A model generated the notes under the pieces. It was not told where the DNA came from and did not search any database. It saw only the letters and a program-made list of their open reading frames with translations. The translations under genes and the position numbers were made by a program. Shown piece after piece: positions 1,953 through 13,237 of a DNA stretch of 64,000 bases. Every line of letters starts with the position of its first letter. Position 1 is the stretch's first letter. Source of the stretch: Catenuloplanes niger (lineage in GTDB: Bacteria > Actinomycetota > Actinomycetes > Mycobacteriales > Micromonosporaceae); assembly GCF_031458255.1 (NCBI RefSeq), contig NZ_JAVDYC010000001.1:6705001-6769000 (forward strand), written 5' to 3'.

Positions 1953-2966
1953 ATGGCGAGATTGTTCGAGTCGCTGCCGGAGCACATCGAGGCGGCCGTC
2001 GAAGTGCGCGATGCCTGGCGCCGCCGGGCCGCGGCGGAGACGGCCGGTCTCGAGTTCCTGGTCCAGGACCTGGCCCGGTGGGCGCCCGGCGCGGTGCTCC
2101 GGGTCGCGTTCCTGGACGGTGACACCGAGGCGCACGCGCGGGTCGAGGAGGCCACCCGGCAGATCACCGACGCGTGCGGCATCACGCTCGACTTCGGCCG
2201 TGACCCGGCGACCGGGACCTACCGGCGGTGGACCACGAACGACACGGAGCACGCGGCGGAGATCCGGGTCAGCTTCGACCAGGGCGGCTACTGGTCGCTG
2301 GTCGGCACGGACAGCACGGACCCGACGCTCGCGGACGCCGGCTCACCGATCGGCGGCGCGCCGCACCAGCGCAGCCTCAACCTGTCCGGCTTCGACGGCA
2401 TCCTGCCGGACGACTGGGCCGGGACCGTGCGGCACGAGTTCCTGCACGCGCTCGCGTTCAAGCACAGCCACCAGAACCTGCGCGGCCCGTGCGCGGCCGA
2501 GTTCCGGTGGGAGGACGACGAGGGCTACGTGCCCACCCGGGACGCGCGCGGCGTGTTCGTCGCGGACGAGGCGGGACGGCGGCCCGGCGTCTACACCTAC
2601 CTCGCCGGGCCGCCGAACCGGTGGACGCGCGCGAAGGTCGACTTCAACCTGCGGGCACCGGAGCCGGACGACACGGTCGCCGGGCCGTTCGACTCCGAGT
2701 CGGTGATGCTCTACCAGTTCGAGCCGTTCTTCTACCGGAGCGCGCCGTCGCCGTGCGCGCCGACCGGCAACGGCATCGACCTCTCCGCCGGCGACATCCG
2801 CGGGCTGCAGCTGCTCTACCCGCGCACGCCCGACCCGGACATGGTCAAGCGGGCGTCGACCGCGCTGTCCACGCTGGGCGGCGGCGTCGAGGGTGCGGTC
2901 TTCAGCCCGTACCGGCAGCGACTCGTGGAGATCCTGAACGCGCTGGTCGAGGGGCGCGTGCCGTGA
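1953..2966 (+). CDS. metzincin-type zinc metalloprotease
   Basis: 337 aa, no signal peptide, so cytoplasmic. The zinc site HEFLHALAFKHSH has H161, catalytic E162, H165 and H171, the HExxHxxxxxH spacing of metzincins; Ala168 replaces the usual Gly. A Met-turn SVMLY (S250, M252, Y254) follows, as in astacins (M12). The N-terminal half (RVAFLDGD, HARVEEATRQITDACGITLDF) matches the beta-strand/helix layout of small astacin-like bacterial proteases. ATG at 1953 was preferred over GTGs at 1911 and 1947 because GGGGGG (1940-1945) sits at normal distance. It is the first gene of a four-gene protease/NTPase operon; the next gene begins 61 nt downstream. Confidence 0.8.
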   Translation: MARLFESLPEHIEAAVEVRDAWRRRAAAETAGLEFLVQDLARWAPGAVLRVAFLDGDTEAHARVEEATRQITDACGITLDFGRDPATGTYRRWTTNDTEHAAEIRVSFDQGGYWSLVGTDSTDPTLADAGSPIGGAPHQRSLNLSGFDGILPDDWAGTVRHEFLHALAFKHSHQNLRGPCAAEFRWEDDEGYVPTRDARGVFVADEAGRRPGVYTYLAGPPNRWTRAKVDFNLRAPEPDDTVAGPFDSESVMLYQFEPFFYRSAPSPCAPTGNGIDLSAGDIRGLQLLYPRTPDPDMVKRASTALSTLGGGVEGAVFSPYRQRLVEILNALVEGRVP

Positions 2967-3027
2967 GCGGGTCAGCGACCCGGGCCACCGGGCCGGCCGG
3001 GCGGGCGGGCGACGCGGAGGCGGCGGC

Positions 3028-4209
3028 ATGACCGGGGACGCGGGCCGCTACCTCGACCTGATCTCCACCGGCGGCGGGCAGCGCACGCTGGCCGAGTCGG
3101 CCGCGTCGAGCGCCGGCAACGCGGCACCGGCGGCCCGCACCGAGCTGGTGGAGCGGCTCGACGCCGAACTCGCCTACATCGAGTCGAAGACCGGCGTGGC
3201 ACCCGACCCGGTGCTGCGCGCCGAACTGCTCGCCCGGGCGGACACCGCGCTGGACAAGTTGCTCGGCGACGGCGCGGCCGCCACGCTCACCGCGGCCGAC
3301 GTCTCGGGCCTGGAGGCGGTCGTGGTCAGCGACGGCACCCGCCCGGTGCTGTTCGTCGAGGACGACTTCGTCGACCTGCTCGCACCCAGCATCGGCGACT
3401 ACGCGGCGCCGCTGTCCCGGCTCGCCGAGGAGGTGCGCGCGGTCTGCCGGTCCGTCGGCCGTGTCGACGACCCGGCCGCGGCGCCGCTCGGCTACCAGGG
3501 CACCGCCTGGGTGGTGGCCGAGGGCCTGGTCGCCACGAACTTCCACGTGCTGCAGGCGATCGCGCCGCGCGGCGTCCGCGCGGACGGGCAGTTCACCGGC
3601 CGGCTCAACCCCGGCGTGGCGGTCCACTTCGGGCACGAGGTCGGGCGGCCCTGGCCGGACCGGCGGTTCCCGATCCGGCGGGTGGTCGCGGTCGGCCGTG
3701 AGGGCGCGCCCGAGCACGTGCACCAGGTCCTCGGCGGGCTCAACTTCGACGGCCTGGACCTCGCGATCCTGGAGCTGGAACCGGTGCCGGGCCGCGCGTT
3801 CCCGGCCCCGGTCCCGGTGGCCCGCGGCGACGACCCGGTCACCCGCGGCGGGCTGGCCAGCGCCGGGCGCGGTGTCTACGTCGTCGGCTACCCCGGCAAC
3901 GAGCACTCCACCACGCGCGAGCTGTTCACCCGGATCTTCGCGGGCGTGAAGAGCTACAAGCGGCTCGCACCCGGCCGGATCACCGCGGCCGCCGGCGACC
4001 TGCCCGACGATCCGCGCGGCTGGGTGCTCACCCACGACGTGTCCACCCTGGGCGGCAACTCCGGCTCCGCGGTCGTCGACCTGGACGCGGACGGGCGCTC
4101 CGTGCTCGGGCTGCACTTCGCCGGCCAGCCGGAACGGCAGAACTGGGCGCACGCGCTGGAGCGGATCACCGGTGAGCTGTCCGCCGTGCTGCCCGCCGCG
4201 GCCAGATGA
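3028..4209 (+). CDS. trypsin-like serine protease with N-terminal helical domain
   Basis: 393 aa, no signal peptide or membrane segment. Residues 1-145 are alpha-helical with no family I recognise. Residues 150-385 form a chymotrypsin-fold protease with an intact triad: H173 in VATNFHV, D244 in LDLAIL and S345 in GGNSGSAVVD. The GNSGS nucleophile motif and the closing HFAG resemble HtrA-like or trypsin_2 peptidases. RBS GGAGG (3016-3020) precedes ATG 3028. The stop overlaps the next start (ATGA), implying coupled synthesis with the second protease. Probably an intracellular, regulated protease of the 1953-9751 module. Confidence 0.8.
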   Translation: MTGDAGRYLDLISTGGGQRTLAESAASSAGNAAPAARTELVERLDAELAYIESKTGVAPDPVLRAELLARADTALDKLLGDGAAATLTAADVSGLEAVVVSDGTRPVLFVEDDFVDLLAPSIGDYAAPLSRLAEEVRAVCRSVGRVDDPAAAPLGYQGTAWVVAEGLVATNFHVLQAIAPRGVRADGQFTGRLNPGVAVHFGHEVGRPWPDRRFPIRRVVAVGREGAPEHVHQVLGGLNFDGLDLAILELEPVPGRAFPAPVPVARGDDPVTRGGLASAGRGVYVVGYPGNEHSTTRELFTRIFAGVKSYKRLAPGRITAAAGDLPDDPRGWVLTHDVSTLGGNSGSAVVDLDADGRSVLGLHFAGQPERQNWAHALERITGELSAVLPAAAR

Positions 4210-6020
4210 CCGCGGCCACCTCGCTCAGTCTCTCGGCGCTCGCCGACACCGTCACCGCGCCCGCCGTCGACTGGATCGTGGTCGAGCGGGTCTGGGAGCG
4301 GGTCAGCCGCGCCCGGGGCGTGCACATGCCGCCGCAGACCAGCCGCGACCTGCGGGACCTGCTGGTCGGTGCGTTCGCGGCGGCCGAGGAGCACGGCTTC
4401 CTCGACGTGTTCGCGTTCGAGCTGATCAAGGAGGGGCTGGCCGGGCCGTCGCTGGTCACCGCGCTGCGCGCGATCGACGAGAACGCGGGCGGCTTCCAGC
4501 TCCAGGCGCTGCAGAACGGTGTCCGGCACGCGGTCAACCCGATGGTGTACGCGGAAGGTCTGCTGCGCGCCTGCGACTACGTCTGCCGGATAGACATCAG
4601 GGGCGTCCAGGCCGGCACCGGCGTGCTGGTCCGGCCGACCGTGGTCGCGACCATGGCGCACGTGGTCTGGCCACTGCTCACCCAGGCACCGGACGGCACG
4701 CTCGCGGCCGCACCGGACAGCCTGCGCGACCTGGTGGTCACGTTCCGCGACTACGTGGACCGGGCCGCGACCCGGCTCGCCGGCGACACCGCGCCGCTGC
4801 ACCCGGACTGGCTGCTCTACGGCAGCCCGCCGGCCGAGGGCGAACGGCTGGCCGGGGACGTGCGCGACATCGCCGGCATCGCCGCGCCGGCCGGGCCGTG
4901 GGACCTCGCGCTGATCCGGCTCGCCGCACCGCCCAAGGGTGCCGCCCAGGCCGAGCTGATGGGCAGCCCACCGGCCGGGCCGTTCGAGGTCAGCCTGCTG
5001 CACCACCCGCACGGGCCGAACGAGCGCGGCGAGCCGCTGCTGCTCTCCGACGGGCGCCTCGACGAGCAGCTCGGCGTGCCACCGGTGCGGTACCTGCACG
5101 ACGTGAACACGCTCGGCGGCTCGTCCGGCGCGCCGGTCTTCGACCAGCGGTGGCGGATCGTGGCACTCCACCAGGGCGGCATCACCGGCGTCCGCAACCG
5201 GGCCGTGCCGGTGCGCGACTGGTCGCCGATGCTGGACCGGCCGCTCCCGGACGGCGTGCCCTACCTGCGCGGCCTGGAACGCTCCACCGATCTGCGGCCG
5301 GTTCCGTACCCGGTGATCGGCCGCCGCGTCACCCAGCAACGGCTGTGGCGCGCGCTGCGCCCGGACGCGGCGCCGGCCGAGCGGCTGTTCGTCGTCCGGG
5401 GCGGGCCCGGCACCGGCAAGCGCTTCACGAAACGCCTGGTCCGCGAGTTCGTCGAGCGGCACAGCGACGGCGTGGTGGTGACGCTCGACCTGGCGAACGC
5501 GCTCGGCCAGGACGCGGACGGCTTCGCCCGCTGGATTACCGGCGCGCTCTCCGCGCCCGACCCCACGCTCACCCACGGCGACGTGCTCACCACGGCGCCG
5601 CGGGAGATCCGCGACGGCGTGCTGCCCGGCCTGTCCCAGCGGGTGTCCGAAGTGGGCGGTGACCGCGCGGTGTGGCTGGTGCTGGAGGGGTTCGGCGGCG
5701 CGGCGCTGGACGTGCCGCCCGGCGTGAAGGACGTGGTGGTGAACCTGATGGGCGGGCTCCGCGACCACCCGTCCCAGCGGCTCGTGCTGGTCGGCTGGGA
5801 CGACCGGCCGCCGGAGGGCTTCGAGGCGTCCATCGAGGACCTGGCGTTCCCGACCGCGTACGACATCGCGGCGCACTTCACCCCGGCCGGTTCCGCCCCG
5901 GCGGACGCGCTGGTCACGGCGGTGCCGTCGCTGCTGGCACTCCAGCGGGCCCAGGGCCTGACCGGCTATCCGGCCGCGCACGCGGTGCTGCGCATGCTGT
6001 CCGTGGGCATCGCGGCATGA
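4206..6020 (+). CDS. trypsin-like protease fused to a degenerate P-loop domain
   Basis: 604 aa. Residues 10-110 are a helical N-terminal domain (VERVWERVSRARG, RDLRDLLVGAFAAAEEHG) that may be an effector-associated adaptor. Residues 115-345 are a trypsin-like domain with H152 (ATMAHVV), D233 (WDLALIRL) and S307 (GGSSGAPVFD). From about 370 a P-loop NTPase-like domain follows (VIGRR, then FVVRGGPGTGKRFTKRLV). Its Walker A has Arg406 where Ser/Thr binds magnesium, and the presumed Walker B is VWLVLEGF with no Asp, so nucleotide hydrolysis is doubtful. Start ATG overlaps the preceding TGA; its own stop overlaps the next ATG. Confidence 0.8.
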   Translation: MTAATSLSLSALADTVTAPAVDWIVVERVWERVSRARGVHMPPQTSRDLRDLLVGAFAAAEEHGFLDVFAFELIKEGLAGPSLVTALRAIDENAGGFQLQALQNGVRHAVNPMVYAEGLLRACDYVCRIDIRGVQAGTGVLVRPTVVATMAHVVWPLLTQAPDGTLAAAPDSLRDLVVTFRDYVDRAATRLAGDTAPLHPDWLLYGSPPAEGERLAGDVRDIAGIAAPAGPWDLALIRLAAPPKGAAQAELMGSPPAGPFEVSLLHHPHGPNERGEPLLLSDGRLDEQLGVPPVRYLHDVNTLGGSSGAPVFDQRWRIVALHQGGITGVRNRAVPVRDWSPMLDRPLPDGVPYLRGLERSTDLRPVPYPVIGRRVTQQRLWRALRPDAAPAERLFVVRGGPGTGKRFTKRLVREFVERHSDGVVVTLDLANALGQDADGFARWITGALSAPDPTLTHGDVLTTAPREIRDGVLPGLSQRVSEVGGDRAVWLVLEGFGGAALDVPPGVKDVVVNLMGGLRDHPSQRLVLVGWDDRPPEGFEASIEDLAFPTAYDIAAHFTPAGSAPADALVTAVPSLLALQRAQGLTGYPAAHAVLRMLSVGIAA

Positions 6021-9000
6021 CGTCCCCGCAGGACGCCGCGCTCGCCGCGATCCGGCAGATGTGGGAGGGGCGCTCCGCGGCCGAGAGATCCGCGTTCACC
6101 GCGGCGCTCGAACCCCGCCCGCCTGCGGCGGACCAGGACCTGCAAGACCAGATCACCAGGGTACGGTGGCGGGGCGCGCTGTCCGGCGGTGTCGACCCGG
6201 CCGCGCTCGTCACCGGACTCGACCCGGCGGACGCGGCGCGCGTGCTCGACCTGCTGGTGCCGGAGTTCGACCGGTCCCATGTGGACGACGCGTGGCGCTG
6301 GACGATGCGCAGCGGCCCGCGCCGGGACGCGCTGCACGCGCTGGCCGACTCGCCGCACGCGCTGACCGAGGCGATCACGGACGCGGTGCGGGTGCCCACC
6401 GACGACGCCGGCTACTACCTGCGCCTGCTGGCGGCCAGATCCACCGGCCTCGGCGACCTCCCGGCGGACGGCCCCACGGCCCGCCCCACCACGCTGCCCG
6501 ACCGCCCGTCCGGCCCGGCGCGGCCCGATCGCCCGTCCGGCGCCGCGTTGCCCGATCGCTCGGCCGATTCCGTGTTGCCCGATCGCTCGGCCGGTTCCGC
6601 GTTTCCTGGTCGCTCGGCCGGCTCGGCGTTGCCCGATCGCCCGTCCGATGCCGCGGCGTCTGACCGCGTCGCGGGACCGGGCGGTCCAGCCGGACACGAT
6701 CGCGCCGCGGGTCGCGATCGGCCTGCGGGAAGCGCTCGCGCCGCGGGCCGTGACGGTGCCGCGGGCCGTGATGGTGCCGCGGGCCGTGATGGTGCCGGGG
6801 GCCGTGATCGTGCTGCCGGGCCCGGTCGGGCCGCCGTGCCGCCGGGGCGGGCCGCTGGGCCGGCCGTGCCCGCCGCCCGGACCGGTGCGCCCGACGGCGA
6901 AGGGCTGGCGGCGCTGGATGCCGCGCGGCTGCTGGCCGCGATCGCGGCGACCGGGACGCCGCCGCCGGACCGGCCGGTCGACACCCGGACCGCGCTGCAG
7001 GCGCTCGCGTGGGCGGAGCCGCTCGGTGGGCTGGCCGGGGACCTCGCGGAGGCGCGGCGGCGGGTGCGTGTCGAGGCGGTGGTGGAGAGCTACGGCGCGC
7101 TGCTCGGCAACGGCTTCTTCGGGCGCGAGGCGGAGCTGTCCCGGCTGCGGGACTTCGCCACCGCGCCGGTCCCGGCCGACGCCGCGCCGGTGCCGCTGCT
7201 GCCCGTGGTCGGTATCGGCGGCGCCGGGAAGTCGACCGCGCTGGCCGCGTTCGTCGAACCGTACCTGCGCGAGATCCTGCGCCCGGACTCCACCGGTCCG
7301 GTCGTCATCGTGATCGACTTCGACCGCGTGCAGTTCCGGATCGACGCGGAGCTGGAACTGTCCTTCGAGGTCAGCCGGCAGCTCGGCAACGCGCACCCGG
7401 TCGCGGCCGCGGACTTCTCCGCGCTGCGCTACCAGGTGCGCCAGGAACGCGCGGGCACGGCCGCGGCCCGCTACACCGGGTCGCTCGCGGCCGGGGAGGG
7501 TGCCGGGGACGCGCCCGCGTTCGAACGGGACGCGTCGCTGGCCGTCCGCCTGCACGAGCTGGACACCCGGCCGGTGCTGCTGATCCTGGACACGTTCGAG
7601 GAATGGCAGCGGGACCGGCCGGACCCGGCGCGGCCCCGGCTGCACGACAACGACCCGGAGGCGCGCATCCTGCGCTGGATCGTGCGGCTGCGGGACGTCA
7701 TGGGACTGCACGGGCTGCGCGTGATCCTCTCCGGCCGCGCGGACGTCGCGATCAACGCGGCCGACGTCACGGACCGGGTCGAGACGGAGGAGGCGATCTG
7801 CCTGGCCGACCTGGCGCCGGAGGCCGCGGCGGAGCTGCTGGCGGCGCACGGCGTACCGGTGGAGCAGGCTCTGGATCTTGCTGGTCTGGTCGGTGGGAAC
7901 CCGCTGACGCTGCGCGTGGCCGCGCGGTTCTTCGCGCACCTGCCACCGGGCGAACGGGCGGACTTCGTGGCGCGCACCGGGGCCGCGCTCGACGGCGAGC
8001 TGCGCCGGGAGGTGCTCTACGCGCGTTTCCTCGGGCACATCGCCGATCCGCGGGTGCGCCGCCTGGCCCACCCCGGGCTGGTCCTGCGCCGGGTCACCGC
8101 GGGCCTGATCCGGCACGTGCTGGCGCCGTACTGCGGCCTCGGCCCGCTGACCGACGCGGACGCGGCCGAGCTGCTGGAACGCCTCGCGGACGAGGTCTGG
8201 CTGGTCAAACGCGACGGTGCCGAGCTGCGCCACCTGCCGGACGTCCGCCGCGCGATGCTGCACCTGATGGCCACCGACCCGGCCCACCGCGACGCGCTGC
8301 CCGCGATCCACCGCGCGGCCGCGTCCTGGTACCGCGGCCGGTCCGGCGAGGAGGCCGCGGTCGAGGCGCTCTACCACGACCTGATGCTCCGCCTCGACGA
8401 CGACACCGCCCGCGGACTGTCCGAACGACGGCCCGCCCGGCCGCGGCCCCCGGTCCCGCCGGCCGGCTCGCCCGGTGTGCCGCAGCCGTCCCCGCCGGGC
8501 GGGACCGGTCCGGCCCGGGATCCGGTGGAGCCGTCCGGCCCGCGTGCCGCTCCGGCCCGGCGGCGACGCGGCTGGCGGCCTGCGTGGCCGTGGGGACGGC
8601 GCGCACGGGACGGGTCCGGCCGGTGGCCCGGCCCGGCGCCGGAAGCCGGGCCGACCGACTCGGCGGAACCGGTGGAGCCGCACGAACCGGTGCGCCGGCC
8701 CGGCGACGGCGCCGGCCGGGACCGGCCCGCGGACCCGCTCGATCCCGCGGACCCACACCTCGCCGGCCGGCTGCTCGCGCTCGGTGACGCGGTGGACGAG
8801 CTGCCGCCCGCGACCGCGGCCGAGGTCCGGGTGCTGCGCGGGGAGACGCCGCCGCTGGCCGAGGCGCTGCTGCTGCGCGATCCGGCCTGGGTGCGGTGGC
8901 TGGACCGCCGCGGCCGGTTCCTGGTCGACAACGACGCGGCGGCGGAGGCGCTGGAGCTGCTCGACGCGCGGCCCGCCCCGCGGACCGGGCTCGCCGAGCC

Positions 9001-9751
9001 GGAATGGCTGGCCCAGGCCTGCTGCGACCTCGCGCGCTGGGACGAGTACGGCCCGCGGGCGTCGGCGTTCGGCGGCGGGCGGCTCACCCCGCACCGCTAC
9101 CAGACCGTCGCGGCGCTGCTCAGCGGCTCGGTGATCGCGCTGCCCGCGGTGGACCTCGAGACGCTCGGCGGCGGCCCCGGATTCCACGATCACGTGCTCA
9201 TCCACTACTTCTACCGGCTGCTGCTCGGGCAGCCGGCGGACATCGCGGCGTGGCGGCGGGGCGAGCCGGGGCTCACCGAGTCCGCCTCGGACCTGATCGG
9301 CAGCAACCGGGCCGTCGCCGACCTGTTCCCGGTCGACGAGGTGCGCCGGGCCCTGGTCTGGGTCGCGGCCGGCTGCCCCGGCGACACGATCACGCTGCGG
9401 AACCCGGTCCCCGGCGTCGGCACGTCGCTGTCCCGCCGGCGGATCAGCGACTCGCCGGAGACGCTGCGGAACCTGCGCGGCGACAATCCCGAGCTGCGCG
9501 CCGCGGTCCGCGGGGCACTCGGCGAGATCGCGGTCGCGGACGCCGCCGAGGCGCCCGACGCCGACCTGCTCGCCCGGATCGACGTCGCCGGCGACCTCGG
9601 CGACCATCTCGACCGGGCGGCCGCCCGACATCCCGGCGCGACGCGGCTGCACCGGGTGCGCGACGCGTTCCACCGGTGGGACCGGGCCAACGACGCGGTG
9701 CTCGACGCCGTCATCCGCGACGCCGAGGCCGGCTGGCCGCGGCGGACCTGA
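6017..9751 (+). CDS. STAND-type (NACHT/AAA-like) regulatory NTPase
   Basis: 1244 aa, cytoplasmic. An N-terminal helical domain (1-150) is followed by a repetitive Pro/Ser/Ala/Arg/Asp linker (about 155-300), then a P-loop ATPase: Walker A GIGGAGKST (G399-T407), Walker B VLLILDTFEE (D525), and a sensor-like VILSGRADV strand. After it come a winged-helix-like segment and a second charged linker (about residues 800-910). The C-terminal 330 residues are helical and unrecognised. The architecture fits STAND switches that sense a trigger and activate an effector. ATG overlaps the stop of the protease gene upstream, so the proteases are likely the effectors. The function in the cell is inferred. Confidence 0.75.
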   Translation: MTSPQDAALAAIRQMWEGRSAAERSAFTAALEPRPPAADQDLQDQITRVRWRGALSGGVDPAALVTGLDPADAARVLDLLVPEFDRSHVDDAWRWTMRSGPRRDALHALADSPHALTEAITDAVRVPTDDAGYYLRLLAARSTGLGDLPADGPTARPTTLPDRPSGPARPDRPSGAALPDRSADSVLPDRSAGSAFPGRSAGSALPDRPSDAAASDRVAGPGGPAGHDRAAGRDRPAGSARAAGRDGAAGRDGAAGRDGAGGRDRAAGPGRAAVPPGRAAGPAVPAARTGAPDGEGLAALDAARLLAAIAATGTPPPDRPVDTRTALQALAWAEPLGGLAGDLAEARRRVRVEAVVESYGALLGNGFFGREAELSRLRDFATAPVPADAAPVPLLPVVGIGGAGKSTALAAFVEPYLREILRPDSTGPVVIVIDFDRVQFRIDAELELSFEVSRQLGNAHPVAAADFSALRYQVRQERAGTAAARYTGSLAAGEGAGDAPAFERDASLAVRLHELDTRPVLLILDTFEEWQRDRPDPARPRLHDNDPEARILRWIVRLRDVMGLHGLRVILSGRADVAINAADVTDRVETEEAICLADLAPEAAAELLAAHGVPVEQALDLAGLVGGNPLTLRVAARFFAHLPPGERADFVARTGAALDGELRREVLYARFLGHIADPRVRRLAHPGLVLRRVTAGLIRHVLAPYCGLGPLTDADAAELLERLADEVWLVKRDGAELRHLPDVRRAMLHLMATDPAHRDALPAIHRAAASWYRGRSGEEAAVEALYHDLMLRLDDDTARGLSERRPARPRPPVPPAGSPGVPQPSPPGGTGPARDPVEPSGPRAAPARRRRGWRPAWPWGRRARDGSGRWPGPAPEAGPTDSAEPVEPHEPVRRPGDGAGRDRPADPLDPADPHLAGRLLALGDAVDELPPATAAEVRVLRGETPPLAEALLLRDPAWVRWLDRRGRFLVDNDAAAEALELLDARPAPRTGLAEPEWLAQACCDLARWDEYGPRASAFGGGRLTPHRYQTVAALLSGSVIALPAVDLETLGGGPGFHDHVLIHYFYRLLLGQPADIAAWRRGEPGLTESASDLIGSNRAVADLFPVDEVRRALVWVAAGCPGDTITLRNPVPGVGTSLSRRRISDSPETLRNLRGDNPELRAAVRGALGEIAVADAAEAPDADLLARIDVAGDLGDHLDRAAARHPGATRLHRVRDAFHRWDRANDAVLDAVIRDAEAGWPRRT
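6494..6655 (+). repeat. six tandem 27-bp repeats inside the STAND NTPase gene
   Basis: Units begin at 6494, 6521, 6548, 6575, 6602 and 6629, exactly 27 bp apart. Each encodes nine residues of the form (L/R/F)P(D/G)R(P/S)(S/A)(G/D)xA. The period keeps the reading frame, so copy number can vary without breaking the protein. Confidence 0.85.
6740..6811 (+). repeat. four tandem 18-bp repeats inside the STAND NTPase gene
   Basis: Four near-identical units of GCCGCGGGCCGTGATGGT type start at 6740, 6758, 6776 and 6794 and encode repeats of AAGRDG. They lie about 85 bp after the 27-bp array, in the same disordered linker. Confidence 0.8.
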
Positions 9752-10213: not shown

Positions 10214-13006
10214 CTACCCGGGGAGCGCGGTCCAGGACTGGTGGAGCAGGCCCTCCGGGTTCTGCAGGGAGAGCACGCGCGCGCCGCCGTACCGTTGCTC
10301 GCCCAGGCCGGCCACCAGGTTGGCGCCGGCCGCGCGGAGCGTGAAGCCGTTGTCGGTGGGCAGGACGACCCAGTGCTGTTCATCGGCCGCCTCCTTGCAG
10401 GTGACCTGGACGAGGGGGACTCCGGCGGCGAGCTCGCCGTCCAGCGGGACCACGCACTTCTCCGTGACCCTGGAGATCAGCTGGAACGCGTTGCCGACCC
10501 GGCGCAGGCTCCACTGCTGCTGGGTGACGCCTTCGGCGCGCTGGGCCACGATCGGCGTGGACTCGTTGGAGCGGGCGCCGTAGAGGTGCGCGGCACCGCC
10601 GGTGAGCGCGTTGTTGAGCTGGAACCAGCCCTCCATGATCGGACGGGCCGCCGGTGAGGTCTTGGCCGCGAGCGCGTCGGTGAACCGCTCGCCGTCGTTG
10701 GTCAGCACCTGGATGCTGTACTCCGTGCCGGGTGTCAGGCCGATGATCCGGGCCCGGGTGGCCGCGGTGACGCCGATGATCTGCCCGTTGACCGCCACCG
10801 TGTAGTGCACCGCGTCCGCGGACGCGTTCCAGCTGACCCGGGTGGACGTGCTCGTGGTGTCCCGGATCTTCAGGAAGCCGGGCGGTGGTGGCGCGCCGAT
10901 CGGCGGTTCGCTGGCCAGGCCCGGCTCGGCCGGCGGCGGTGCCGGCAGGGACGGCGTCGGCGAGGCCGCGGACGCCGTGACCGACGGGCTGGGCGAGGCC
11001 GGCGCGCCGGCGCCCTGGCCACCGGCCGGCGCCTGCCCGGCGGCCGGCGTCTTGTCGTCGTCGCCGCCGGTGTCCTCCGGGTCCTCGGGATCCTCCGGGT
11101 CGTCCTCACCGCTGGTCGGCGTGGGCGAGGCCGGTGCCGGCGTGGGTGACGCCGTGGGTGCGAGGGACCGCCGGGGCGACGGCGACGGGTTGCCGCGCGG
11201 CGGCGCGACGGTATCGGCCGGACGCTGGGGGGCGGGATCGGCGGCCGGCGCGGCCTCGCGGATCAGGAACTCGCTGTTCGCCAGGTTCCAGTTCTGCGTG
11301 AGGTAGCTGCCCGGCTCCGGGTCGGTGTTGAAGTAGTCGTCGCCGCCGCAGTCGAGCAGCGCCTCGCCGGACGGGCTCCCGCAGTCGACCCGGACCTCCT
11401 CGCCGCTCTCGTCCGGGTAGCACATCAGGTCGTGGTCGTCGACGCAGTGGCCCAGGCCGCTGCTGTTCGGCGCGCCGTCCGCGACGCCGCCGAGCGTGTG
11501 CACGAGCTGGTGCGTGGCCATCGGCGCGGACCAGCAGCCGGCGTCGACGCGCGCGTAGGACGGGCCGCCGTTGTTCAGGTTGCCGGCGTCCGCCCGCGGG
11601 TCCCGGATGACCGTGCCGATGCCGCAGTAGACGTTCGTGTCCGCGAAGATCAGATATTTCCGGTCGGTACGGTCGTAGCCGAGCGCGCGCAGGCCGGCGA
11701 GCGTCACGTCGAAGCTGTCCAGCCGGTCCGCGGGCAGCTGCACCTCGGTCACGTCGACGCGGCAGTCCGGCGTGGTCACGTAGCGCACATGGCGGATGCC
11801 GCCGGTGCGGGCCGCGCTGGCGGCGAAGATCTCGTCGACCTCGGCGGCCCAGCGGCGGATCGACGGCAGGTAGCGGCTGAACCGGCTGACCGCGTCCGTC
11901 GGGTACGCGTACAGCACCTGCACCCGCTTGCCCTGGTAGCCGTCGCCCTCGCAGGCCACGCCGTCCTCGCCCATGGTGAACGCGTCGTCGCCGCTGGCCG
12001 GGTCCGGCACCAGCGCGGGCATCGAGCTGGCCGGGACGACCGCGCCCTCGTCGCGCACCACGTCCGCGTCGTCCGGCACGCCGCGGGTGTCCTTGACCGG
12101 CTCGACCAGCGGGGGCACGCCCTCCGCGATCGGGGCCACGTCCTGGGTGACCTTGAACGTCGGCGGTGCCGGGTCCGGGCCGTACGAGCAGACGCCCTCG
12201 GAGTCGTTGATCTCGTAGGCACCGATGCAGAGCGAGTTGCGGCTGGCCGGGGTGAGCCCGTCGTAGACCAGGCCGTCCTCCGGCTGGCTGGCCGGCAGCG
12301 CCGCGATCGGCACCAGGCCGGGCAGCGAGCTGATGCCGGGCGTCCACTGGGTGAGCAGCGCGGGCAGGACCAGCAGCAGGACGCCGAGCACCACGGCACC
12401 GGTGGCCAGGTTGATCCGGCGCGGGAAGCGCACGGTCGCGGGCAGGTCCCGCGCGGCCGACGTGCGCCGGACGACCTCGCCGTGCCGTTTCGCGGCCCGG
12501 GGCGAGGCCGGTGGCTCGACCGGCGCCGGGACGCGTCCACCGCGGTCCCGCCGGATCGCCTGGACGCGCATCAGCTGGGTCCGGCTGGCCCACGCCGGCA
12601 GTTCCTGGGCACGGCGGCGGGCACCCTCACGCCGTACCGCGGACGGGGTGCGGGGTTCCGTGGGTTCGGCCGGCGCGGACGCGGTGGTCAGCCGGCCGCG
12701 CAGCGACGTGATCGCCGGGACGGCCCGCGCGGTGACGATCTCGCGCACCCGGTCCCAGCGCGCCACGACGCCGTCCGGCCGGGCGATGCCGGACCGGCGG
12801 GCGACGGTGGACAGGCGGGTGATCCCGGTGAGCCGGGCGATCCCGGACAGGCGCGCGAGTCCGGAGGAGAGACCGGTCCGCCGCGGCTCGGGAGCCCCCG
12901 CGCGGCGGTGCCGTGCGGAGGTCGAGGCGAACGAGGCCGGAAGATCCCGGATGAAGGAGCGCGTTGTGGCCGTTCGCCGCCGTGGAAGCTCGCGGTGCGA
13001 CGACAC
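10214..13006 (-). CDS. membrane-anchored zincin-like protein with FN3 and ricin-type lectin domains
   Basis: 930 aa. GTG at 13006 is chosen because GGAGGT lies nine bases upstream; the frame is open further but without a ribosome site. A basic cytoplasmic N-terminus of about 190 residues, rich in RLSGIARLTGI-like repeats, leads to one membrane helix (VLGVLLLVLPALL). The exported part contains a zincin-like domain: HQLVHTLGGV (H499, Q500, H503) followed by GLGHC and DDHDLMCY. A Pro/Ser/Thr-rich linker, a fibronectin type III domain (VSWNASADAVHYTVAVNG) and a C-terminal ricin-B-like beta-trefoil with QQQWSL and QHWVVL motifs complete it. Gln500 replaces the catalytic Glu of HExxH, so it may bind rather than cleave. 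Confidence 0.7.
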   Translation of the reverse strand: MSSHRELPRRRTATTRSFIRDLPASFASTSARHRRAGAPEPRRTGLSSGLARLSGIARLTGITRLSTVARRSGIARPDGVVARWDRVREIVTARAVPAITSLRGRLTTASAPAEPTEPRTPSAVRREGARRRAQELPAWASRTQLMRVQAIRRDRGGRVPAPVEPPASPRAAKRHGEVVRRTSAARDLPATVRFPRRINLATGAVVLGVLLLVLPALLTQWTPGISSLPGLVPIAALPASQPEDGLVYDGLTPASRNSLCIGAYEINDSEGVCSYGPDPAPPTFKVTQDVAPIAEGVPPLVEPVKDTRGVPDDADVVRDEGAVVPASSMPALVPDPASGDDAFTMGEDGVACEGDGYQGKRVQVLYAYPTDAVSRFSRYLPSIRRWAAEVDEIFAASAARTGGIRHVRYVTTPDCRVDVTEVQLPADRLDSFDVTLAGLRALGYDRTDRKYLIFADTNVYCGIGTVIRDPRADAGNLNNGGPSYARVDAGCWSAPMATHQLVHTLGGVADGAPNSSGLGHCVDDHDLMCYPDESGEEVRVDCGSPSGEALLDCGGDDYFNTDPEPGSYLTQNWNLANSEFLIREAAPAADPAPQRPADTVAPPRGNPSPSPRRSLAPTASPTPAPASPTPTSGEDDPEDPEDPEDTGGDDDKTPAAGQAPAGGQGAGAPASPSPSVTASAASPTPSLPAPPPAEPGLASEPPIGAPPPPGFLKIRDTTSTSTRVSWNASADAVHYTVAVNGQIIGVTAATRARIIGLTPGTEYSIQVLTNDGERFTDALAAKTSPAARPIMEGWFQLNNALTGGAAHLYGARSNESTPIVAQRAEGVTQQQWSLRRVGNAFQLISRVTEKCVVPLDGELAAGVPLVQVTCKEAADEQHWVVLPTDNGFTLRAAGANLVAGLGEQRYGGARVLSLQNPEGLLHQSWTALPG

Positions 13007-13237
13007 GCGTGTGATACCTCCGCATGGTGGGCGTGCGGCGGGGTGAGGGTTTGGGGGACCGCACCCCGCCGCACGCGGGTTACACCGGACCGGGGTGTGG
13101 GGACGACTTGCGGGCGGTGGTCCGACGTAACCGGATGGGATCGGGTTGAAGACTGCCACCTGGCAGATGGCTGTGGGAATGGGCTTAAGGCGAAACTAAG
13201 CAAAGTTTGGGAATCGGATCGTTGGGTGGCCTTCGCA

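Follow-up and report, generated by a model that had tools for sequence, protein, structure and literature searches.

We analyzed a stretch of 64,000 nucleotides of the Catenuloplanes niger genome (contig NZ_JAVDYC010000001.1, positions 6,705,001 to 6,769,000; the genome is a single contig of 9.74 Mb), hereafter the window. Near its beginning four consecutive forward-strand genes encode an astacin-like metzincin and candidate executioner (P1; 1953..2966, 337 amino acids), a LypC-type trypsin-like protease (P2; 3028..4209, 393 amino acids), a LypA-type protein with an N-terminal helical region, a trypsin domain, and an ATPase-like domain (P3; 4206..6020, 604 amino acids), and a LypB-type STAND ATPase (P4; 6017..9751, 1244 amino acids), as judged from open reading frames, Pfam matches, family alignments, and profile comparisons. 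The start of P4 is an ATG inside a longer open frame (5672-9751). The open reading frame coordinates reproduce the spacing given by an initial annotation of the locus, with 61 nucleotides between P1 and P2 followed by 4-nucleotide ATGA overlaps at P2/P3 and P3/P4, and all four genes were recovered by a codon-usage gene finder whose training set consisted in part of these same genes. That annotation had also named the catalytic residues Glu162 (P1), Ser345 (P2), Ser307 (P3), and Lys405 (P4), each of which was confirmed, and had stated that the proteins lack signal peptides; on hydropathy alone, no signal-peptide-like or membrane stretch was seen in any of the four (highest 19-residue Kyte-Doolittle mean, 1.52). 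Gasdermin, endonuclease (including the NucA type), phospholipase, and subtilase domains were likewise absent from the four proteins in Pfam searches at an E value of 0.01.

The assignment of P1 as a metzincin, already made in the initial annotation, was borne out by a family profile rather than by Pfam, which returned a below-threshold Astacin match and nothing else. When the profile built from 16 P1-family sequences was compared to solved structures, the best match was myroilysin (5gwd, 2e-51); matches to matrix metalloproteinases and to animal astacins were far weaker. The zinc site HEFLHALAFKH (residues 161-171; 2433..2465) and the Met-turn SVMLY (residues 250-254; 2700..2714) retain His161, Glu162, His165, and His171 and Ser250, Met252, and Tyr254, respectively, in all 16 aligned sequences. 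The astacin motif HExxHxxGxxH and the Met-turn are thus present, the motif glycine being alanine in the window and glycine in Streptomyces flavochromogenes. About 34 profile positions of P1 precede the part that matches myroilysin. P1 therefore shares with myroilysin and the M12A astacins the zinc motif, the Met-turn, and an N-terminal extension, and differs from them by its location in an operon and by the lack of a signal peptide, a cysteine switch, and the family glutamate.

P2 and P3 both scored above the Pfam Trypsin_2 cutoff. In P2 this domain covers residues 158-357, with the catalytic Ser345 within GGNSGS, and the PADLOC profile PDLC03010 spans residues 19-386 (8.7e-30). At an E value of 1e-6 the same profile matched one of 150 genomes of the order, that of the window itself, and one of 14 control genomes, that of Caulobacter vibrioides (the NCBI name of C. 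crescentus). The PADLOC label of PDLC03010, "nacht", is unfit for a trypsin, and we used the match and not the name; the PADLOC profile labeled "trypsin-like", PDLC03017, was set aside, being weak on P3 and without a match in any control genome. The initial annotation had treated P3 simply as a trypsin. A trypsin domain is indeed present (residues 137-321; 4614..5168; His152, Asp233, and Ser307), but the protein is really a trypsin-ATPase fusion, whose C-terminal ATPase-like domain (5310..6017) with the degenerate Walker A sequence GPGTGKRF had been missed. An AlphaFold2 model of P3 (mean predicted local distance difference test score [pLDDT] 74.6, predicted template modeling score 0.48) showed five helices within residues 3-94, followed by a protease region rich in beta structure (residues 126-335) and an alpha/beta region from residue 356 onward, with block pLDDT values mostly of 67-84 across residues 11-90. 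The five predicted helices of residues 1-94 (4206..4487) occupy the position of the CARD in LypA. P4 exceeded the Pfam nSTAND1 cutoff by 0.5 bits (27.6 versus 27.1), with AAA_16 falling just under its own cutoff; it contains a conserved N-terminal domain (residues ∼44-144; 6146..6448) and a STAND/AAA core with the Walker A Lys405 (residues 366-600; 7112..7816). The intervening residues ∼145-330 (6449-7006) form a degenerate low-complexity repeat rich in Pro, Arg, Asp, Gly, and Ala.

LypABC of Caulobacter crescentus is described, in the available portion of PMC13236601, as a CARD-NLR system in which LypA comprises a CARD (residues 1-80), a trypsin domain (85-305), and an ATPase domain without conserved Walker residues (324-592), LypB comprises an N-terminal domain, an AAA/STAND domain, and TPR, and LypC comprises a trypsin with an optional endonuclease; LypA and LypB were shown to interact, and both peptidase sites as well as the LypB Walker motifs were needed. 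Relatives of this core were found on conjugative plasmids next to insertion sequence (IS) elements. A tblastn search of plasmids with P3 gave 18 records, 12 of them with at least 80% query coverage, and a Rhizobium phaseoli plasmid operon was found to encode an S8 protein with a P2-like C-terminal trypsin, then a P3-like protein, then a P4-like protein. Matches to these products were strong for P2 against the C-terminal part of the S8 protein (2.5e-35), for P3 against the LypA-like protein (1.4e-22 over 572 columns), and for residues 386-791 of P4 against the LypB-like protein (2.9e-36). A scan of genome contigs yielded 20 loci, 15 of which had the order P2-P3-P4 (P3 detected by tblastn only in four); one had P3 and P4 only, and four had only trypsin-type matches. 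In genome G249 (L091:4636-9501, reverse strand), P3-like and P4-like sequences form one open frame of 1621 amino acids, which supports a direct partnership of P3 and P4. At a separate locus (L089:12198-15217) the P4-like gene extends over two overlapping frames, perhaps owing to a frameshift or as a true two-gene form.

By sequence, P2, P3, and P4 match, in this order, the LypC-, LypA-, and LypB-type core of CARD-NLR systems, an assignment drawn from homology to the fetched operons of that type rather than from direct comparison with the Lysobacter or Caulobacter proteins. In common with the Lysobacter gasdermin system and Caulobacter LypABC, the locus has a LypA-like trypsin with a degenerate ATPase domain and a modeled N-terminal helical bundle (P3) and an NLR-like STAND ATPase with a Walker A motif, homologous to LypB-like proteins (P4). 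It differs in its actinobacterial host, in the separate astacin-like metzincin at the effector position, and in the absence of a subtilase and of any death effector of the described kinds (gasdermin, phospholipase, or endonuclease). The initial annotation had found the combination of genes unfamiliar; two trypsins with a STAND protein are in fact a known set, and only the metzincin is unusual.

The four genes occur in the same order in all five Catenuloplanes genomes examined, including that of the window, and in each the genes 5' of the operon are the same, encoding a methyltransferase and an adenosine deaminase; the genome scan recovered the same operon on a Catenuloplanes japonicus contig. 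The 61-nucleotide gap between P1 and P2 is peculiar to the window strain, the two genes overlapping by 4 nucleotides in the other four genomes. Nonsynonymous divergence (dN) was less than synonymous divergence (dS) in all 15 gene pairs compared (dN/dS of 0.14-0.43; P4 of L037, whose start had been placed too far into the gene, was excluded). Of the four proteins, P4 was conserved least; it is 1002 to 1244 amino acids long in four genomes of the genus, and in the fifth its open frame has 1254 codons. Because of this synteny in four other genomes and the excess of dS over dN, the operon is not a chance arrangement. The same four-gene set is present in Streptomyces flavochromogenes (P1 profile match, 4.5e-132), so that the genes are conserved together beyond the genus and the nonconserved neighborhood that the initial annotation had named as grounds for rejection was not found. 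The gene 5' of the Streptomyces operon differs from the upstream genes in Catenuloplanes.

The window has the metzincin, encoded separately, in the slot directly 5' of P2; in Proteobacteria the P2-like trypsin is fused to a subtilase, a NucA endonuclease, or a phospholipase D. In 33 plasmid records matched by P2 with tblastn, the annotated protein under the match was an S8 peptidase in 13, a DNA/RNA nonspecific endonuclease in 13, a phospholipase D-like protein in three, a plain serine or trypsin-like protease in three, and unannotated in one, and Pfam identified S8 together with Trypsin_2 in each of five fusion reading frames scanned (one from a plasmid and four from genome contigs). Gasdermin is elsewhere replaced by phospholipases or endonucleases, according to the available text of PMC13236601; the subtilase is an effector type of P2-like trypsin fusions beyond these. 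P2 matches were present in 13 of 300 genomes of the family Micromonosporaceae and nine of 394 genomes of the class, both counts including the window; identity was at least 61% in only eight of the 13 family genomes. A close P1 (E value of 1e-30) was found in one of the 394 class genomes, the window's own, and the metzincin variant is therefore rare. In a tree of P2 plus P3, the Streptomyces sequences grouped with those of a metzincin-free Terrabacter locus (support 1.0) and the Catenuloplanes sequences with those of the metzincin-free family genome G057 (support 0.43), and the Streptomyces copy was unplaced in the P1 tree (support 0.26); these trees do not establish that the metzincin operon arose once and was inherited vertically.

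On balance we consider it probable that the operon belongs to the CARD-NLR type and uses the astacin-like metzincin as its executioner, forming an NLR-gated protease cascade. P4 would sense an invader or an internal signal and oligomerize on ATP, and its N-terminal domain would recruit P3 through the helical region at the CARD position and switch on the P3 trypsin. The signal would then pass to P2, the trypsin that is elsewhere fused to an effector; P2 (or P3) would cleave or otherwise release P1, and the released P1 would degrade cytoplasmic proteins so that the cell is killed or lysed. What we observed directly is that P2, P3, and P4 are homologous to the core proteins, keep their order, and are conserved, and that P1 occupies the effector slot. 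The analogy with LypABC suggests an ATP-dependent sensor role for P4, with P3 as the protease that partners it through the CARD position and P2 as the protease tied to the effector; that P1 is an effector made as a zymogen, that a trypsin activates it, and that phage is the trigger are what we infer. Membership of P1 in such a system is supported by the retention of all zinc ligands and by the occurrence of the four-gene operon in all five Catenuloplanes genomes and in S. flavochromogenes. Release of P1 by a trypsin is supported by the recurrent pairing of P1 relatives with trypsin genes described below, by the pairs of a pro-nuclease with a trypsin reported by Tuck et al. (as far as described in the accessible text of PMC12799240), and by the tendency of astacins to be made as zymogens, their propeptides being given as 34 to 486 residues in the available text of PMC9848320, together with the ∼34 positions that precede the myroilysin-matching part of P1. 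The earlier suggestion of an NTPase-gated conflict or abortive-infection module thus finds a basis in the match of genes 2-4 to the CARD-NLR core, its functional part staying conditional.

Several results weigh against this proposal. The glutamate that follows the third zinc-ligand histidine of astacins, present in 12 of the 16 aligned P1-family members, is absent from P1 (Ser172; 2466-2468); the residue is Ser or Thr in all six CARD-NLR-linked copies examined, and Ser in the relative at L024. The first 74 residues of P1 contain no cysteine and hence no cysteine switch. Given both features, P1 may not mature in the classical astacin manner. The AlphaFold2 model of P1, from a three-row alignment, was unusable (mean pLDDT 39.2). 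For the helical bundle modeled at the CARD position of P3, a CARD fold is a candidate; the N-terminal sequences diverge among relatives, no CARD was among the PDB profile matches of their alignment (which were weak and to unrelated or engineered proteins), and an hhalign comparison of the P3 and P4 N termini gave nothing. The core also occurs without an adjoining metzincin in Terrabacter and in three family genomes (G057, G139, and G249), and G227 carries a more divergent P2-P3-P4 set, again metzincin-free. No P1 match was obtained at 1e-5 in G057, G139, and G249, apparently within the same draw of 300 family genomes; Terrabacter has a weak P1-like match elsewhere in its genome (39%, 8e-6). 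P1 was not found in any of the 16 loci examined in this respect (L089-L104). A STAND gene lies near a more distant P2-like trypsin (37-42%) in seven of the eight class genomes that have such a trypsin, usually preceding it, and the P2-P3-P4 order is therefore not kept at that distance; these eight loci (L097-L104), seven with a STAND gene close by in another order, possibly represent a related but separate system. Together with metzincins that have no trypsin beside them, the metzincin-free cores indicate that P1 is neither constant in the system nor confined to it.

The four actinobacterial loci that have the core without a metzincin would suit an alternative in which the three core genes act alone, as proposed for LypABC in gene-transfer-agent release in Caulobacter, with the metzincin loosely attached to them, as an accessory or a processing protease. 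It would also fit the dispensability of the LypC endonuclease and the absence of a gasdermin from LypABC, both taken from the available part of PMC13236601. We regard this alternative as unlikely, since the metzincin is kept in all five Catenuloplanes genomes, overlaps P2 by 4 nucleotides in four of them, recurs in Streptomyces, and retains its zinc ligands, and since the P2-like trypsins of relatives are fused to effector-type domains. A role in developmental or programmed lysis (sporulation, or gene-transfer-agent-like or prophage lysis) instead of phage defense appears more doubtful still. The identical chromosomal position in the five genomes speaks for it (fixed in the genus, the operon would fit housekeeping lysis no less than defense), as does LypABC itself, which acts in gene-transfer-agent lysis and, in the accessible portion of its description, has no association with known immunity genes (PMC13236601); against it stand the relatives on conjugative plasmids beside IS elements and the patchy spread of P2 in the family and class. 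That unlinked proteases became neighbors by accident in a large genome with 18 trypsin-like matches is scarcely credible, being contradicted by the gene overlaps, the conservation across orders, the P3-P4 fusion, and the order held in common with the S8-type operons.

Relatives of P1 were detected in 19 of the 300 family genomes, including that of the window, and 11 of these have a directly adjoining same-strand trypsin gene, which belongs to the present operon in five cases and is a different trypsin in six (G024, G245, G136, G235, G173, and G151, or six of the 14 genomes outside the genus); as background, the 9.7-Mb window genome has 18 Trypsin_2 matches. Four of the six other trypsins carry effector-associated domains (EADs), above the Pfam cutoff for EAD2 (L027) and EAD1 (L032) and below it for EAD5 (L025) and EAD1 (L031); the trypsin of L034 has no EAD match in Pfam, and that of L035 was recognized by local profiles only. 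The remaining eight of the 19, whose neighbors were partly scanned with Pfam, have no adjoining same-strand trypsin (L022 has a convergent one), which is a further point against a fixed link between P1 and the proposed cascade. We put forward only tentatively, and with markedly less confidence than the proposal for this operon, that astacin-like metzincins form a general, unnamed class of intracellular death effectors, latent until released by a trypsin and common to the CARD-NLR operons of Catenuloplanes and Streptomyces, the EAD-trypsin modules of Micromonosporaceae, and the caspase/NucA-trypsin loci of Bradyrhizobium.

The core is a known kind of system, related also to a NucA-trypsin system, and what is new is the metzincin at the effector level. 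In the available text of Kaur et al. 2020 (PMC7159879), the mostly alphaproteobacterial NucA-trypsin System 3 has multiple trypsins, S8 and NucA fusions, a STAND protein that is joined to a trypsin and to a bacterial Death-like domain, and a predicted proteolytic cascade; here the NucA domain is absent and a metzincin is present instead. The nuclease-protease pairs of Tuck et al. 2025 resemble the locus in that the effector gene is typically upstream and paired with a trypsin, and differ in that the effector is a nuclease of the metallo-beta-lactamase type and its activation by the trypsin is established there, whereas activation of P1 is a proposal (PMC12799240, accessible text). Elsewhere metallopeptidase domains are rare effectors fused to vWA components, or FxSxx peptide-processing enzymes (PMC7159879, available part), and inactive zincin-like domains are listed among iSTAND2 effectors (PMC8195603, available part). 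An FxSxx system was rejected for this locus: no such NCBIfam model was among the matches of the four proteins, the best for P1 being BGluronaseAbsR1 (46 bits against a cutoff of 650), and with gaps of at most 61 nucleotides there is no space for a precursor gene within the operon. Among the open-access papers searched, largely by title and abstract opening, we found none that describes a CARD-NLR operon with a metzincin or that names astacins in an anti-phage context, though the earlier Lysobacter CARD-NLR account may hold such a description; P1 had no match in phage records.

Bacteria have a counterpart of inflammasome signaling in the CARD-NLR systems, which the locus extends to filamentous actinomycetes. 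If the proposed cascade is correct, it would be inflammasome-like with a protease at each enzymatic step, and its metzincin output would make the response wholly proteolytic, the effectors named in the available text of PMC13236601 being pores, nucleases, or lipases. The findings also suggest that the LypC-type trypsin is a socket for varied effectors, fused in Proteobacteria and unfused here. A metzincin output would also lend itself to a simple assay, of whether P2 cleaves P1 and active P1 kills. Apparently intracellular astacin-like enzymes of actinomycetes bear on the view, expressed in the accessible part of PMC9848320, that bacterial astacins were mostly acquired by animal-associated bacteria.

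In the window, the methyltransferase and adenosine deaminase genes (70-1898, same strand) end 54 nucleotides before P1, and a gene for a large protein that combines fn3 and ricin-type lectin domains (10214-13159, reverse strand) adjoins the other end of the operon; large opposite-strand genes lie at the equivalent place in L020, L021, and L036, as judged by position only. Two family genomes contain a six-gene cassette of similar gene lengths (L032:8197-14303 and L035:7872-14090) in the order DUF4407, vWA, PP2C, unknown, EAD1-trypsin, and metzincin, the Pfam domains being taken from L032 only. On a Bradyrhizobium plasmid (L105:62-16290), two M12 peptidases are encoded near a caspase-family protein, a 1788-residue trypsin protein, and a NucA-trypsin protein, and on a Thiodictyon plasmid (L109:8076-10348), an M12 metallopeptidase gene is followed directly by a TIR-domain gene.

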